Shown: piece after piece, positions 34,703-41,880 of the stretch | How the letters are laid out: each line of letters opens with the position of its first letter | Numbering within the stretch: the stretch's first letter is position 1 | Assembly: GCA_040756055.1 (NCBI GenBank) | Contig: JBFLZR010000005.1 | Location: forward strand, 219,501 to 283,500 | Length of the DNA stretch: 64,000 nt | Direction of reading: 5' to 3' | DNA from: Candidatus Zixiibacteriota bacterium | Lineage (GTDB): Bacteria; Zixibacteria; MSB-5A5; GN15; FEB-12 | Translations under genes and position numbers: made by a program | The notes under the pieces: model-generated | What the model was told of the DNA's origin: nothing | What the model saw: only the letters and a program-made list of their open reading frames with translations | Databases searched by the model: none

Positions 34703-36193
34703 CTAACGAATCACCTTTAGCTCATCTACTTTCGGAATTGCGGCGAGCACCTCTATGCCCAGGACCGATTCCACCTCATCTACCCGTCTAAAAGAATTAT
34801 CCAATAACTCCGTGAGAAAAACGAAACATCCCCCCAGGGCGAGGCCGAGAACAAAGCCAAGCAGGATTATCTTCGGCTTATCCGGCCAGACCGGCACAAG
34901 CGCTAACGCAGCCGGTTCGATGACGTGATACTTGGTTCTATCCTTAACCTGCTCCGATAAAATACCAACCGTGGTCTCCTCCGATCTAAAGGCATCACGG
35001 TAGCGTCTCGCCTCCTCCACGCGGCTTTGAAGTTCGGCGATCTCCGATTCCAGTCTCGGAATCATTGCCATCCTCTGTCTCAAATCGTCCAGCGGACGTT
35101 CAAGGCCCCGTTCTTTGGAGTTTGAAATGTCCAGATTTTCCTGCACTACAAAGTACCTCGTGAGCAAATCCTGCTGATTCGTCGGATAGGCTCCGAATTG
35201 TGTCCTCACAGCCTGCGCTATAACGTGCTCCAGGTCCTTGATCTGTGTGTTCAGCCGGATATTCACGCTAATGACGTTCTGCGCGCTCCACTCGTATTTT
35301 TCCATCATCTCGCCATAGGTCGATACCAAACCGTCAATGGCGGTTCTCAGATCCAGCATGGTGTCAGTATAGCGCAGCCTCGCTTCCCCGAGATTGAACT
35401 GACGCAGATTTTTTACGAGCGACTCCAGTTCTCGATTGAGATCAATTTGCTCAAGGTTTACCTTATCGATACTGGAAAGAATCGCAGCCTGGTTCTCTTC
35501 CGATGTGACATTCTCCGGCAAACGGAGTCTCGATAGCCTGGCTTGCGCGGCATTCATGGAATCCACGGCGAGTCGATAATAATATTCCGTTTTCTCCAGC
35601 TGCATGTCGGTAAATGCCTGGTTGTCCAGAATCCTCTCAAGTTCATATTTGGCTCTCTCCCGGGCCAGAATCTCCGCAAGTTTGTCAGCCATATCACGCG
35701 CCAGAATCGGACTCGCCGACTCAACGGTAATTTTAATCTGGTCATACCCGTGGAAAGTCACCGATATTTGCTTGCGGAGTCTCTCGACCAACATATTGTA
35801 CTTCAGCTGCTCCAGTGAAAACTCGGGGGCCGATTCCCTGGCCTTGGCGGCCTGGCGCGTAATTTCAGGATCATTATCAAGCTTCAATTCCTGAATCAGT
35901 TGAATCAGGAAATTCTTGGAAGTAATTTCCGTTTCCAACGCCAATTGCCGGCTCTGAAGTTCCTCACGAGTCTCGCGGCGCTCACCCACGATGTTGAGAA
36001 GTTCGCGGGAGACACTCGAAGACCTGTCGATCCACACGATAGTCGATGAACTGTACTTGGGCGTCAAAAAACGAGTGCCCACCGCAGCCACGATGGTAAT
36101 GACGATTACGGGGAGGATAATCAGCCACTTGCGCCTGAGAACTAAGGCAAGTATTTCTTTTACATCGATCTGTCGAGACTTATTGTCATCCAC
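34703..36193 (-). CDS. Wzz-type polysaccharide chain-length determinant
   Basis: A 496-residue inner-membrane polysaccharide co-polymerase. TM1 lies at about 18-38 (WLIILPVIVITIVAAVGTRF) and TM2 near 440-465 (IILLGFVLGLALGGCFVFLT). A long coiled-coil periplasmic part lies between them. A Pro-rich WPDKPK segment precedes TM2, as usual for Wzz, and a short cytosolic tail follows that would dock the separate kinase. It controls polymer length and activates the BY-kinase. It is the second gene of the cluster, 22 bases after the Wza-like gene. Confidence 0.92.
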   Translation of the reverse strand: MDDNKSRQIDVKEILALVLRRKWLIILPVIVITIVAAVGTRFLTPKYSSSTIVWIDRSSSVSRELLNIVGERRETREELQSRQLALETEITSKNFLIQLIQELKLDNDPEITRQAAKARESAPEFSLEQLKYNMLVERLRKQISVTFHGYDQIKITVESASPILARDMADKLAEILARERAKYELERILDNQAFTDMQLEKTEYYYRLAVDSMNAAQARLSRLRLPENVTSEENQAAILSSIDKVNLEQIDLNRELESLVKNLRQFNLGEARLRYTDTMLDLRTAIDGLVSTYGEMMEKYEWSAQNVISVNIRLNTQIKDLEHVIAQAVRTQFGAYPTNQQDLLTRYFVVQENLDISNSKERGLERPLDDLRQRMAMIPRLESEIAELQSRVEEARRYRDAFRSEETTVGILSEQVKDRTKYHVIEPAALALVPVWPDKPKIILLGFVLGLALGGCFVFLTELLDNSFRRVDEVESVLGIEVLAAIPKVDELKVIR

Positions 36194-36223: not shown

Positions 36224-37201
36224 TTATCGACCGGTCGTGCCAGTATCCCTGGTAAGAGCATCATACAAAAGTACACCCGAAGTGATTATACCGACCACTG
36301 TGGCGGCTCCGGTCAAACCGATACCGAGAAAACTGTCCCGCCGATATGGCAGAACAAAAGTGTCTTCCTTCTTCATAATGTACCGTGACGGAACACCCTG
36401 CTGAGAGTATTTCTCCAGATTGATTTCGATTGTCTGGGCGTAATAACCATCCTTAGTGATTATACGCGCTTTTTTCATGTCCGCGTCAATGGTTGGGCCA
36501 CCCGCCAGCGCCAGAGCCTCCATCATATCAACATCGTCCTGAAAAGTAATCGGCCCCGGCACGTTAACCGCTCCGATAACGTATATCACATTTTTGCGTG
36601 TCACCTGCTGACTGATATCAGCCGACGGAATACCGGCCGGTGTTCTGGGTATTTCAATCGTGTCCTGACGACGAATCCCGGGCAACTGGTCAAGCCTGCC
36701 GGATTCAATCGCCTCGATCACATCCACAACCTCGATCTTGCCGGCGTCGGTACCTCCGCGGATGATCGTGACCCGGGTCAAATCGCCCGTTTCGGTGATT
36801 CCACCTGCTTCGTTGATTATCGTCCAAAGGTCCGGAATCTCTTCAAAAGTCAGTTTACCGGGATTCAAAACCTGCCCCTTAACGAAAACGTACTGATACT
36901 GATAGTCAATCACCCGCACTACAGCCTGTGAGACCCTGGTATTCAGACGAGACATTTGGCGGACAATGTCGTTTTGCAGCTCAATCGTCGTCTTTCCGGC
37001 CGCCTGAATCTGGCCAATAATATCCAGGCTTATCATCCCATCTTGTCCCACCCTCACATCAACGTTGAGGTCGGGGTCCTGCCAGAATCTTATCTCCAGA
37101 AGATCACTGGGGCCTATGCGGTATTCGGCTCCCACAGCATATCCAACTGCCATAAACAGCATGGCAGCAACTATGTACGTTCTGAATTTCATATGTTTCA
37201 T
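36224..37201 (-). CDS. Wza-type polysaccharide export protein
   Basis: About 325 residues. It has a signal peptide (KFRTYIVAAMLFMAVGYAVG), then the polysaccharide export domain beginning YRIGPSDLLEIRFWQDPDLN (about 25-110), and SLBB-type modules (YVFVKGQVLNPGKLTFEE and VIYVIGAVNVPGPITF). It should form the outer-membrane channel for the polymer. The last 30 residues include a hydrophobic stretch (FLGIGLTGAATVVGIITSGV) that could be the membrane-spanning helix. In-frame starts at 37192, 37201 (both ATG), 37207 and 37210 exist; 37201 is a compromise. First gene of the EPS run. Confidence 0.9.
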   Translation of the reverse strand: MKHMKFRTYIVAAMLFMAVGYAVGAEYRIGPSDLLEIRFWQDPDLNVDVRVGQDGMISLDIIGQIQAAGKTTIELQNDIVRQMSRLNTRVSQAVVRVIDYQYQYVFVKGQVLNPGKLTFEEIPDLWTIINEAGGITETGDLTRVTIIRGGTDAGKIEVVDVIEAIESGRLDQLPGIRRQDTIEIPRTPAGIPSADISQQVTRKNVIYVIGAVNVPGPITFQDDVDMMEALALAGGPTIDADMKKARIITKDGYYAQTIEINLEKYSQQGVPSRYIMKKEDTFVLPYRRDSFLGIGLTGAATVVGIITSGVLLYDALTRDTGTTGR

Positions 37202-37365
37202 AAACACCAATTTGTTTCCCTTTCAGGTAGTAATAATCGGGTAATCTATTTTAAAACAACAAAAAAGCATATCGGTTTCAAAATTACAGGAGAGGTCGAA
37301 TATAAACGGTACCCCGCGGCCTGTAAAGATGAAATGGCATCGCCCCCACCTTAACCCGTTTGTAA

Positions 37366-39003
37366 TCAATGCGTTGCGCTGTAGATGAGGGATTTGTTAC
37401 GGCCTGTCTCCTTTGCCTTCAAAAGAGCCATGTCAGCCGCGAAAATGAGCTTCTTAGATTCATCAGCATGGTCCGGATAAATTGCCGCCCCCATCGATAC
37501 AGTGCAATTTATCGGCCCGGGAATATCATCAACCACGAACTTGTATGCGACTATTTCGGATTGGAGACGATTCATAAAACGCATGCACATCTGGCTATCT
37601 GCCTCAGGCATAATGGCGCAAAACTCGTCGCCGCCATACCGGGCCACCACGTCAATGGCGCGGATCGACCCGCGAAGAATATCTCCCATCTGGCGAAGGA
37701 TGCTGTCGCCGGCAAGATGACCGTAGGTGTCGTTTATATACTTTAGTTCATCAAGATCGAAAATGATAAGCGCGAGCGTCCGGTCATAACGCTTGGCACG
37801 GTTAATTTCTTCGTAAAGCCGTCTGAAAAAGTAACGCTGATTGGCCAGGCCCGTGAGATCATCAGTATACGATAACTCCTCAACTCTTTCAAAAGATTCG
37901 GCGTTTTCCACCAGATGAAAGGCATTGGCTTTAAACAACTCGAGTTGCTTTTGTACTTCTGTGGCGTCCTGCCCTCCGCCCCAGGCCAGTATGCCGCTGC
38001 GACGGCCGGTCGGTGGGAATGAAGCTACATACTCCAGACCATTAGCCTTAAGACGCTCCACCCATCCGGTTATAGTCGGTGATGTTCTATCCAATTCAGA
38101 CACCGCCCACAGCGGTCTGCCGTCGAGAACCAAGGCCAGTTCGCGAAGCGATTCATCGCTCGGTGTTTCCAGCGAAGAACTCATACCATGCTTCAATACC
38201 GTCGGAGCGTTGCCGGCATTTCGCGCACTGTAAACATAGGCCAACCGCGTGACTCCCGTAGCGTCACGGAAGTTGTCAATCAGCCTGGTTACGACAGTCT
38301 CGGTATTACGATGCCGCACCAGTTTGAGAAACCTGGCCGCTGAAGATTGTTCCTGCGGCACGACCGCCGGCGGCCGATGAGTGGCTTGGGACACCTGCTT
38401 GTGCAGCGCGTCGTACTTGGATTCATGCCATTTTATGTGATAGGCCGCCGACAAAGACTGGGCCAGACTGGCAACGAGAAAGGCAAAGGACGGCGAGTTA
38501 ATTTCGTAATTGCTGCGCACGAAGTAGATGCCATACACATTGTCCCGCCACAGGACCGGGAAATAGATGTTCATCCCGAATTTATCGAGATGTTCCCGGA
38601 ATTTAACGGGGAGAAACCTGCGCAGGCGCTCCACCGGTCGCGGGAGAAAATCGCTTTTCAGGACACCGGCCATTTCGTCACTGTAGACCGCGTGAAAATC
38701 AGTTCGATTGAACCCCTTAATTCCGTGATAATAGTTGAGGTCCAGGCTCCCCCGTTTCTTGCGGACAAACACGATTCGGTCGCAGCCAAAGGAATTTATC
38801 AGTAGTTCCGACACCTTGCGGGCGACCTCGACGATACTCCCCTCGACGCTGTTCGAGCGAAGGAAATCGGAGAAATCCTCCAGCCGCATGCTCCTTATCG
38901 CGGCATTTGAGTACCTCTCTGCCCTGATACGCCTCAGCAGAAGAAAACCGAGTAGAGCACTCAGCAATGCCAGGAGCGTTATTAATACGTCCTGCAATAC
39001 CAT
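37366..39003 (-). CDS. Membrane-bound GAF-GGDEF diguanylate cyclase
   Basis: A 545-residue enzyme that should make c-di-GMP from GTP. One N-terminal transmembrane helix (VLITLLALLSALLGFLLL) is followed by two GAF-like sensor regions (about 45-190 and 225-360). The GGDEF domain covers about 380-540, with the active-site RYGGDEF intact. RAID lies five residues before GGDEF, which matches the RxxD inhibitory site, so product feedback is expected. LTGLANQRYFFRRL and ALIIFDLDELKYINDTYGHL are also intact. It lies 155 bases upstream of the EPS operon and in the same direction, which suggests c-di-GMP control of that polymer. Confidence 0.94.
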   Translation of the reverse strand: MVLQDVLITLLALLSALLGFLLLRRIRAERYSNAAIRSMRLEDFSDFLRSNSVEGSIVEVARKVSELLINSFGCDRIVFVRKKRGSLDLNYYHGIKGFNRTDFHAVYSDEMAGVLKSDFLPRPVERLRRFLPVKFREHLDKFGMNIYFPVLWRDNVYGIYFVRSNYEINSPSFAFLVASLAQSLSAAYHIKWHESKYDALHKQVSQATHRPPAVVPQEQSSAARFLKLVRHRNTETVVTRLIDNFRDATGVTRLAYVYSARNAGNAPTVLKHGMSSSLETPSDESLRELALVLDGRPLWAVSELDRTSPTITGWVERLKANGLEYVASFPPTGRRSGILAWGGGQDATEVQKQLELFKANAFHLVENAESFERVEELSYTDDLTGLANQRYFFRRLYEEINRAKRYDRTLALIIFDLDELKYINDTYGHLAGDSILRQMGDILRGSIRAIDVVARYGGDEFCAIMPEADSQMCMRFMNRLQSEIVAYKFVVDDIPGPINCTVSMGAAIYPDHADESKKLIFAADMALLKAKETGRNKSLIYSATH

Positions 39004-39078: not shown

Positions 39079-39363
39079 TTACCGGCGACCCAGTATGTAC
39101 TTGAACCGGGACCTTCTCGTCAAAAGCCTGTTTTCCCTGAGAATCGAAAACACCTGCCACCAACTGGTACGCAAACCGCCGGGCCGCTCGTTGATTATCG
39201 TCTTAATCTCGCGTATCGAGGCAAACGGGTCCTGTTCGACCAGCTTCAAAACCGCGGCTTGAAGCCCCTGGGGAAAGTTCGGCTCTGGTTTGGAGGATTG
39301 CGGAGATGAGGCGAGATTTCGATGGGTCTTCCCGCTGGCATCAACTACCGTCAGCCGGGTCAG
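39079..39363 (-). CDS. Hidden 94-codon frame, basic HTH-like; reached by CTG start or -1 frameshift from the STAS gene
   Basis: The gap between the STAS and GGDEF genes holds an open frame with coding character but no ATG, GTG or TTG before its 39th codon. It begins LTRLTVVDASGKTHRNL, has a Pro/Ser linker, then helical stretches GLQAAVLKLVEQDPF, SIREIKTIINERPGGLR and TSWWQVFSILRENRLL, and ends RRSRFKYILGRR. The tri-helical, basic pattern resembles a winged or homeodomain-like DNA-binding fold. CTG at 39363 overlaps the STAS stop (CTGA) and has AAGGA six bases upstream. It is also the -1 frame of the STAS gene after a dnaX-like slippery run. A sequencing indel in the A10 run is the third explanation. 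Confidence 0.6.
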   Translation of the reverse strand: MTRLTVVDASGKTHRNLASSPQSSKPEPNFPQGLQAAVLKLVEQDPFASIREIKTIINERPGGLRTSWWQVFSILRENRLLTRRSRFKYILGRR

Positions 39364-39749
39364 CTTTTGTCCTTTTTTTTTTCGCCCGGTTCGCCGAAAC
39401 CCACGAAGGCATCACGCGCCTCATCAACCGATGTGTAGGCGGCTAACACGTTGTCGAATTCGAGCAGTTCGTATATCTCATGAACGTTGGAAATCATATT
39501 GGCCAGTTTGATATCTCCACCATTGGCCCGCACTTCCTTGATGTGTGATATGAATATACCCCAGCCCGCCGATGATATGTAATCCACACCGGCCAGATCC
39601 ACCACAAGGTTATACCGCTGCCTTTTCAGCAGAGAATCGATAACTTCCTCGAGTTCGCCCGCTGTCAGAGTATCGATCACGCCATCAACCCGAATCTCGG
39701 ACACTTCGTTGCCGGCGCCTTCCGATAGAGATATTGATATGTTGTCCAT
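39360..39749 (-). CDS. STAS-domain anti-sigma factor antagonist
   Basis: A 129-residue SpoIIAA/RsbV-like protein. In partner switching the unphosphorylated form binds the anti-sigma kinase and frees its target; phosphorylation on a Ser turns it off. It shows EIRVDGVIDTLTAGELEEVI, NLVVDLAGVDYISSAGWGIF with the phosphorylatable Ser in ISSAG, and ANGGDIKLANM. It ends in a Lys-rich tail EPGEKKKDKS coded by an A10 run. The ATG at 39749 is preferred to TTG at 39755. Its kinase and phosphatase are encoded in one gene 88 bases upstream. The tail may be replaced by a DNA-binding-like domain if ribosomes slip. Confidence 0.9.
   Translation of the reverse strand: MDNISISLSEGAGNEVSEIRVDGVIDTLTAGELEEVIDSLLKRQRYNLVVDLAGVDYISSAGWGIFISHIKEVRANGGDIKLANMISNVHEIYELLEFDNVLAAYTSVDEARDAFVGFGEPGEKKKDKS
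39372..39382 (-). other. Slippery A10-G run with dnaX-type heptamer
   Basis: On the minus strand the STAS codons read GAA AAA AAA AAG GAC. The last bases form the heptamer A AAA AAG in the phase used by the E. coli dnaX -1 frameshift. A -1 slip leads directly into the 94-codon frame and would give a fusion of about 223 residues. A run of ten A is also a known substrate for RNA polymerase slippage and for sequencing error. Confidence 0.5.
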
Positions 39750-39837
39750 CGTCAAAGAACTTCCCGAATCAGACGTATTGTGATGTTACGCATTAAAATG
39801 GTTTTGGGCTTTTCAGGCAAGAAAAATCTTAGACGAC

Positions 39838-41880
39838 TCAGCCCGGATTCTCATTGGCCGACTCGGCCCCAAGCTTCTTGACTTGCACCGATGGTCTCGA
39901 TGTTGCCCGGACAGACTCCACCGCAAGGTTGCAACGTGCCACCACAAAAGTCACGTCATCGGTGGTTTTCTGAAAACCGGTAAAATCGTCCAGTTCGTTT
40001 ACGATCGCCTTTGAAAGCGACGCCACATCCGCCGTCCCGTTCTCCGAAAGATAGCTGTCCAAAAAGCCCGTCAGGCGATCCATACCATACTGGCGGTTGT
40101 CCCGGTCCCTGGCCTCCGTAATGCCATCGGTGAAAATGAAGAACAGATCGTCGTGGCTGAGCGTCAAACTCGACTCCTCAAGACTGTCGGCGAAAGAAAC
40201 CCCATCGGCCAACGGCATCCCCAGCGGCATTCCCTTGGGATTGAGCAAAGAAAGACTTTTCTCGTCGGACCTGTAAAAAAGCATCGGGTTGTGTCCGGCA
40301 GACACGAAGCTGATCCGATGTTTGGCGGCATCGTATATCACCAGAAAAACCGTGATAAACATACCTGCCGGTATATTCTCCGTCAAATAGTCGTTTACTT
40401 TTATCAGAATATCGCGGGCCGAAGACTTCTCATCGGCCCGGATCTGAATAACCGTCCTCAATATTGACATTACCAGAGAGGCCGGAACTCCCTTACCCGA
40501 TACATCAGCAACCGTTATACAGTACCGATTCTCGCTAATCGCGAAAATATCGTAAAGGTCTCCTCCGATCACCGAGGCCGCCCGATAGAAAGCATCGATC
40601 TCGAGGCTTGGAAGATTCGGCAACTGACGTGGCAGCAAAGTCTTCTGAATCTCCGAAGCTACTTCGATCTCCTTGGCCATCTTTTCACGCTCGACTATAT
40701 TCTTCTGGTCCTGGCTCAGACGGGTCATCATCTGGTTAAAGGCCTTACTGATTTCAAAAAACTCCTCGGCGCCGGTTAAAGGAAGCTCCGATTCCAATTC
40801 TCCCGAGGTAAACCGCCTGACCCTGCGCGTGATATTGAGAATCGGGTTCACGAAGTAATTCGAGAGAAGGTAAATACCGGCAATACCGATTATCACCAGC
40901 ACGAGTATAAGCAGAAATGTCTTTTTGCGCGATTCCGCCAACTTGAAATAGATATTGGCGGTGGAATATGTGACGTGGACATCACCAATGACCCTCTCTC
41001 CCGACATAATTGGGGTCACCAGATAAGAAAGGGTTTCCCACTGGGTGTCCATGGTTTGTGGCTTGTTTACAATCGAAGTATCCACCTGTGCCGGCGGTTG
41101 GTAGAGGCGCCTGATATTGCGGATGTCGTCCGAATGAGCCCTGATCAGACCCGAGGCATCTGTGAGAACTATCAGTCTCAGTTCGGGGTTAGCCCGCCGG
41201 TAGCTGACGATCAACTCATCAAACTCAACATCCGACCGTCGATTTATGAAATACCCGCCCGCCTGATCAGCAATCGTCTTGGCAAGCGCCTGAACGGTTT
41301 CGTGCTTATGGGTGTACATCTGCTCGGATGTTCGATAATCGAAATAATAGATGGAGACCCCGATGATGACCGACATGATTATGAAAGTCCACACCGAGAA
41401 TTTCACCCGGAGGGTGAAAAGTCGCCTCAGGAATGTACGCCCCACCGGTGAAGGCTCGCTGATGTGTTTCATCATCCGCAGTTCATTGAACCCGGCGGTG
41501 GAGATGTATTCGACCGAATCCATGATCTTCTGAATCATGTAGAAGCCGAGCCCCCCCTTGCGACCGGATTCCACCAGCCGCTCGAGATCCAGGGCGCCCG
41601 TCCCGCTGGGCTGGAATGAACGGCCAAAATCAATCAGAGAGAAGACAATGAGATTTTTATAGATAACAATACGCAGGCGGATTATGCCCTTCTCGTACAG
41701 ATAGGCATGACGGATAATATTGGTCGCCCCCTCCTCCATAGCCAGCAGCACCGCCGCCGTATCCTTGCGCGACATCGAGGCGGCCGTGCAGCTCTCCCTC
41801 ACGGTTCTCTGAATACTGTCGAGGAATTTTTCCTCGGCAATGAATTCAGCGTTTATTTCTTTAATCGGGCGACGGAACAT
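39838..41880 (-). CDS. Fusion of anti-sigma kinase, membrane sensor, HAMP and PP2C phosphatase
   Basis: A 680-residue protein with both enzymes of a partner switch. Residues about 1-140 are an RsbW/SpoIIAB-like GHKL kinase: N-box MEEGATNIIRHAYL, LIDFGRSF, and GRKGGLGFYMIQKIMD. A transmembrane helix (about 165-183), an extracytoplasmic sensor region (about 185-325), a second helix (LLILVLVIIGIAGIYLL) and a HAMP domain follow. A SpoIIE/RsbU-type PP2C domain covers about 425-650, with IGGDLYDIF, VADVSGKGVPASLVM, FVSAGHNPM and FIFTDGITEARD. In known systems the kinase and phosphatase are usually separate proteins. The likely substrate is the STAS protein downstream. Confidence 0.92.
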   Translation of the reverse strand: MFRRPIKEINAEFIAEEKFLDSIQRTVRESCTAASMSRKDTAAVLLAMEEGATNIIRHAYLYEKGIIRLRIVIYKNLIVFSLIDFGRSFQPSGTGALDLERLVESGRKGGLGFYMIQKIMDSVEYISTAGFNELRMMKHISEPSPVGRTFLRRLFTLRVKFSVWTFIIMSVIIGVSIYYFDYRTSEQMYTHKHETVQALAKTIADQAGGYFINRRSDVEFDELIVSYRRANPELRLIVLTDASGLIRAHSDDIRNIRRLYQPPAQVDTSIVNKPQTMDTQWETLSYLVTPIMSGERVIGDVHVTYSTANIYFKLAESRKKTFLLILVLVIIGIAGIYLLSNYFVNPILNITRRVRRFTSGELESELPLTGAEEFFEISKAFNQMMTRLSQDQKNIVEREKMAKEIEVASEIQKTLLPRQLPNLPSLEIDAFYRAASVIGGDLYDIFAISENRYCITVADVSGKGVPASLVMSILRTVIQIRADEKSSARDILIKVNDYLTENIPAGMFITVFLVIYDAAKHRISFVSAGHNPMLFYRSDEKSLSLLNPKGMPLGMPLADGVSFADSLEESSLTLSHDDLFFIFTDGITEARDRDNRQYGMDRLTGFLDSYLSENGTADVASLSKAIVNELDDFTGFQKTTDDVTFVVARCNLAVESVRATSRPSVQVKKLGAESANENPG

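Follow-up and report, generated by a model that had tools for sequence, protein, structure and literature searches.

A conserved ten-adenine run between a STAS domain and a helix-turn-helix-like domain in Zixiibacteriota, a probable slippage site giving two products from one gene

Introduction

In partner switches of the SpoIIAA/RsbV type, the STAS antagonist works with a HATPase kinase and a SpoIIE/RsbU phosphatase. Among genes decoded by slippage, dnaX is the textbook case. In Thermus thermophilus, transcriptional slippage on the nine adenines (A9) of dnaX gives tau and gamma, about half of the product being the shortened form (PMC1088944, PMC5009743), and the hybrid of the Thermus RNA polymerase is given as 9-10 bp (PMC5009743), equal in length to the run described here. 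Two-ORF dnaX genes found by GeneTack have A10 between their out-of-frame halves (PMC3711429); no gene of the STAS, anti-sigma or phosphopantothenoyl kind is mentioned in the main text of that paper. In Shigella mxiE, transcriptional slippage joins two frames to give a full-length transcription regulator (PMC1088944). Slippage products are usually reported gene by gene; our literature search for STAS with transcriptional slippage found nothing, and those for Zixibacteria with frameshift and for coaBC with frameshifting found nothing related. Here we describe a STAS gene in the window (the whole stretch of 64,000 nucleotides that was analysed) in which conserved recoding at an A10 run, most likely by slippage of RNA polymerase, probably yields both STAS alone and STAS joined to a helix-turn-helix-like (HTH-like) domain.

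Results

Reading frames and domains at the locus

The locus comprises the following features, in window coordinates.

39360..39755, minus strand: STAS gene, the zero-frame short product (PF01740 and TIGR00377 above cut-off)
39373..39382, minus strand: putative slippage run of ten A, kept as A9-A11 in 58 of 58 distinct clade loci
39360..39362, minus strand: zero-frame TGA, the end of the short form
39341..39343, minus strand: TAG that closes the third frame shortly behind the run
39079..39381, minus strand: -1 frame continuing STAS with a linker and the HTH-like domain, stop at 39081-39079 (translation; purifying selection)
39082..39276, minus strand: predicted HTH-like four-helix domain (AlphaFold2 pLDDT 92.5; 81-sequence alignment; weak HTH matches in Pfam)

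The run reads as T10 on the plus strand and lies at the 3' end of the STAS ORF (minus strand, GAA AAA AAA AAG GAC AAA AGC TGA), whose translation most likely starts at ATG 39749, as judged from the alignment with relatives. The -1 frame is open from within the run down to 39079 and its translation is KKKGQKLTRLTVVD...DPFASIREIKTIINERPGGLRTSWWQVFSILRENRLLTRRSRFKYILGRR. A first-pass annotation of this DNA had proposed a hidden frame of 94 codons with a late first start, a fusion of about 223 residues, a dnaX-type heptamer and an AAGGA motif before a CTG codon, all of which were recovered. The frame has 94 codons if counted from CTG 39363, its first ATG, GTG or TTG is at 39249, the fusion has 223 residues from ATG 39749, the heptamer A AAA AAG is in the right phase at the STAS end according to the codon phases, and AAGGA is found six bases before CTG 39363.

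The STAS domain matches PF01740 with 58.6 bits (cut-off 22.6) and TIGR00377 with 61.2 bits (cut-off 53.45), with a serine pair (SS) that is invariant in the alignment with relatives. The C-terminal domain, of ~65 residues, is helical and conserved, and AlphaFold2 predicts STAS, a low-confidence linker (124-159 in the homologue L005) and a confident four-helix domain, so that the coherent HTH-like protein of the first-pass annotation is supported as a conserved domain with a predicted four-helix fold. In the Pfam search of this domain no family reaches its cut-off; HTH_Tnp_Tc3_2 is touched by 48 of the 81 domain members, and the window member scores 15.1 bits against a cut-off of 31.5. Also, the fold search against the PDB gave no neighbour at E<=0.001, the neighbours being mixed (FapR, FFRP/Lrp, AhrC and PadR among them), with several HTHs that bind DNA, and none significant. 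The Pfam, PDB-sequence and fold searches therefore agree in a weak HTH-type resemblance only, and since the HTH families stay below cut-off and the fold neighbours are mixed and non-significant, that the domain binds DNA is something we only infer. The domain was found as a sole copy in the window genome.

Fused and split relatives

The joined STAS-HTH protein was searched in 60 relatives, all of which gave a match (some through other STAS genes only), and a further scan of genome contigs added 80 loci, whose names are mostly Candidatus Zixiibacteriota, candidate division GN15 and Calditrichota. After removal of duplicates, 94 distinct loci have STAS together with the HTH-like domain, 60 as a single open frame and 34 split between frames. 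Regarding the run, 36 loci are fused without it, 24 are fused with A10 and 34 are split with A9-A11, and no split locus lacks it. The database search that the first-pass annotation had asked for thus returned many homologues of both kinds. The single-frame homologues without an A-run, which it had named as evidence against its proposal, were indeed found, but all of them lie outside the run-bearing clade, within which single-frame genes keep A10.

Purifying selection acts on the frame behind the run in split genomes, in agreement with the codon-level conservation on which the first-pass annotation had made its proposal depend. Pairwise dN/dS behind the run is 0.11-0.30 for split pairs and 0.07-0.23 for fused pairs, the changes between split genomes fall mostly at third positions, and the HTH-frame residues right behind the run are conserved in both classes. 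This supports that the hidden frame is translated as the continuation of STAS.

These comparisons also bear on whether the window genome carries an assembly error here, or a frameshifted gene in decay. Homopolymers are error-prone and all the genomes are assemblies, nearly all of those compared coming from uncultured organisms; nonetheless, in the other three species of the window's genus the reading at DNA level likewise has the halves out of frame at this point, and the 34 split loci come from many projects and show purifying selection. The arrangement shared by four congeners goes against the assembly error that the first-pass annotation had offered as an alternative, and an error or decay is hardly credible here.

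Two adjoining frames would also be expected if the HTH were a separate gene, initiated at CTG 39363 or another codon and translationally coupled to STAS, and in the window the CTG overlaps the TGA, with its AAGGA upstream. However, 60 loci are a single STAS-HTH frame, and the STAS stop of the split loci varies (TGA in 15, TAA in 15 and TAG in 4), an NTG in the position of this CTG being present only where it is TGA (15 of 34), so the CTG proposed in the first-pass annotation as a second route does not hold in general. ATG, GTG and TTG are absent before the HTH-like domain in 20 of the 34 split loci, and in the remaining 14 no Shine-Dalgarno-like (SD-like) 4-mer precedes any start ahead of it. 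This variety of stops and the lack of starts with an SD among the split loci led us to reject the CTG start, and a separate gene is very improbable.

Length, phase and history of the run

In the run-bearing Zixiibacteriota clade (58 distinct loci), the run sits exactly at the STAS/HTH junction in every locus and is A10 in 49, A9 in 8 and A11 in 1. All 24 fused loci have A10 with the HTH in frame, whereas the 34 split loci would be brought into frame by one more A (a -1 shift, 30 loci) or by one A fewer (+1, 4 loci); these four could include assembly errors. The codon phase of the run is 0, 1 or 2 depending on the locus. When the codons around the run were resampled from each locus's own usage with the amino acids fixed, the chance of a run was ~4% per locus (geometric mean), and 4.9 of 58 runs were expected against 58 of 58 observed, a figure to be read as a guide and not as a probability because the loci are related and are not independent trials. 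The other two frames close 0-16 codons behind the run (25 in one locus), with near stops that differ in stop codon between lineages and that exceed the expectation from codon resampling only modestly (mean P 0.25, with 0.5 expected).

Taken at the level of sequence, the hidden frame behind A10 is confirmed as real and conserved. Chance is no sensible explanation, because relatives keep both halves, 58 distinct loci keep a run that resampling predicts in fewer than five, and the 3.3-Mb genome holds just five A10 runs.

A tree built on the two domains, with the linker left out, requires a single switch between presence and absence of the run, which suggests that the run arose once, and about 13 changes between fused and split, ~4 of them forced by strongly supported branches alone. 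For example, the sister loci L016 (A10, fused) and L052 (A9, split) are one A apart and in register downstream. Such switches, together with the tendency of A10 to gain or lose bases, would fit replication slippage or phase variation, with cells carrying A9, A10 or A11 in their DNA and toggling the HTH genetically. Yet the split is common to four congeneric species at large synonymous distance with selection on the HTH kept, an in-frame A7 or A13 is never found among the clade loci, whose lengths stay at 9-11, and the same run is present in the housekeeping genes dnaX and coaBC. We consider phase variation improbable on these grounds.

Neighbouring genes

The genes around the locus, from Pfam and, for the first two, synteny, are listed below.

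39838..41880, minus strand: HATPase - sCache - HAMP - SpoIIE phosphatase, the likely kinase/phosphatase partner
37366..39003, minus strand: GGDEF protein, downstream
36224..37210, minus strand: polysaccharide export (SLBB) protein of the neighbouring operon
34703..36193, minus strand: Wzz chain-length protein of the neighbouring operon

In the upstream gene, an N-terminal HATPase (HATPase_c_2) is followed by sCache, HAMP and SpoIIE. Nearly all run-bearing relatives with enough flank retain both this HATPase-SpoIIE gene and the GGDEF gene as neighbours. This gene content indicates that the locus is a partner-switch module beside exopolysaccharide genes.

Other A10 runs in the genomes

Pattern searches of the window genome found its five A10 runs, both strands counted, in STAS-HTH, in dnaX, at the CoaC/CoaB junction of coaBC, at the start of mnmE and in no evident gene; its 13 A9 runs gave no further clear case at a domain junction. 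Genome G012 (3.0 Mb, rated 100% complete) has exactly three, in STAS-HTH, dnaX and coaBC, and G001 and G010 have these three and one more each. In G039, of family f4, STAS-HTH, coaBC and three other sites have A10. One G039 run (L250, C1:999925-999934) lies between two out-of-frame ORF pieces.

The three further gene-associated runs of the window genome are as follows.

C8:78186-78195 (L064:987-996): A10 of coaBC; relatives L188-L226
C6:5812-5821 (L063): run of dnaX; relatives L158-L187 and L228-L236
C1:354309-354318: run near the 5' end of mnmE, A9-A10 across the loci read; loci L255-L258, L260, L262, L266, L267, L270, L279 and L284

In families f1 and f4, coaBC has A8-A10 at the CoaC/CoaB junction, G019 and G023 being the exceptions among the readable genomes; the junction run was not found in f2 and f3. 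The halves are out of frame (+1A) in 7 run-bearing f1/f4 genomes and in frame in most, which suggests the same slippage device in a coenzyme A gene. As separate observations, coaBC of G023 (L223) is split with no A-run found and that of G026 (L225) is interrupted within CoaC; these breaks may be a pseudogene, an assembly error or another device.

The dnaX run is A9-A10, and in frame without exception, in about 20 f1 genomes; several f2/f3 genomes have it too, and it is absent from the seven f4 genomes read. It sits at a tau/gamma-like position, with the other frames mostly stopping close behind. In the window's genus, the run of mnmE lies behind a short upstream leader, and the MnmE frame has no in-frame start in three of the four species, so mnmE is a possible fourth slippage gene. 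MnmE modifies tRNA-Lys, and a feedback through this modification is a speculative idea.

Discussion

We propose that STAS-HTH is one gene decoded two ways at its ten-A run. RNA polymerase would slip on the run and give mRNAs with 9, 10, 11 or more A. In the window genome, the 10-A message would encode STAS alone, with 129 residues from ATG 39749 and a stop three codons behind the run, and the 11-A message would encode STAS-linker-HTH. Where a sister genome has the HTH in the zero frame, this slip would yield the short form as a second product, so that fused and split genomes would both make both proteins. The gene has the features expected of a slippage gene: a homopolymer of at least nine A/T in the coding sequence, a selected second-frame product and a run that is independent of phase. 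The two frames, the conservation of the run, the selection on the hidden frame and the synteny give this proposal its support from sequence; the slipping enzyme, the ratio of the products, DNA binding and the target bound are what we infer from it. The idea of the first-pass annotation, an HTH frame joined to STAS by frame slippage with two products, is thereby sustained at this level.

The same two products would arise by programmed -1 ribosomal frameshifting at A AAA AAG/A in the run, as in E. coli dnaX. The slippery heptamer is in phase, and for this reason ribosomal slippage alone could explain 30 of the 34 split loci, those with a -1 shift. Moreover, an SD-like 4-mer, a possible stimulator, stands at most 20 nt upstream in 16 of the 58 loci, against 2 in the control stretch, and the run behind the start of mnmE, a gene of tRNA-Lys modification, would suit a ribosomal theme. 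However, four split loci need +1 (some possibly assembly errors), seven A would be enough for the ribosome, and no conserved RNA stem-loop was found downstream of the run, where the folding z is about 0. Transcriptional slippage is favoured because the length is held at 9-11 where a heptamer would suffice, because both codon phase and shift direction vary, and because a downstream stem is not conserved. The dnaX-type -1 slip of the first-pass annotation thus stands as slippage, but its ribosomal route fits less well and seems unlikely as the main mechanism; it may add to transcriptional slippage in the -1 cases.

In terms of function, the upstream HATPase-SpoIIE protein would set the phosphorylation of STAS. 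Free STAS would act as an ordinary antagonist of the partner switch; the long form would bring the switch to DNA, perhaps at the adjoining GGDEF or exopolysaccharide genes. A single gene would then supply a partner switch with two antagonists, one free and one putatively DNA-binding.

A wider and more tentative reading, to which we give less than even weight, is a clade-wide slippage regime in which A10 is retained almost exclusively as a switch inside genes, at domain boundaries (STAS-HTH, coaBC, dnaX and possibly behind the start of mnmE), and the short-to-long ratios of several genes shift together through slippage of RNA polymerase, or through ribosomal slippage on AAA codons dependent on MnmE and tRNA-Lys. 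It is the length of the homopolymer, rather than its reading phase, that is conserved here in many genera, at domain junctions of several cellular genes, and these junction genes are nearly the sole use of A10 in the genome. The clade would therefore lend itself to comparative tests of programmed slippage in uncultured bacteria, and in many genomes frame-based annotation drops half of the regulator.

Compared with the described systems, the locus shares with Thermus dnaX a run of 9-10 A, close stops in the other frames and, as proposed, a short and a long product per gene. It differs in that the gene is a partner-switch regulator and that, in split genomes, the slip would be needed for the long form and not for the short one. 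The two-ORF dnaX genes found by GeneTack have likewise ten A between out-of-frame halves of one gene. As in Shigella mxiE, slippage would merge two frames, although mxiE has a U/T-run and belongs to an unrelated protein family. Finally, the locus resembles the SpoIIAA/RsbV systems in its STAS domain, its invariant serines and its adjacent HATPase-SpoIIE gene, and departs from them in the extra HTH-like C-terminal domain and in the two putative products of a single gene.
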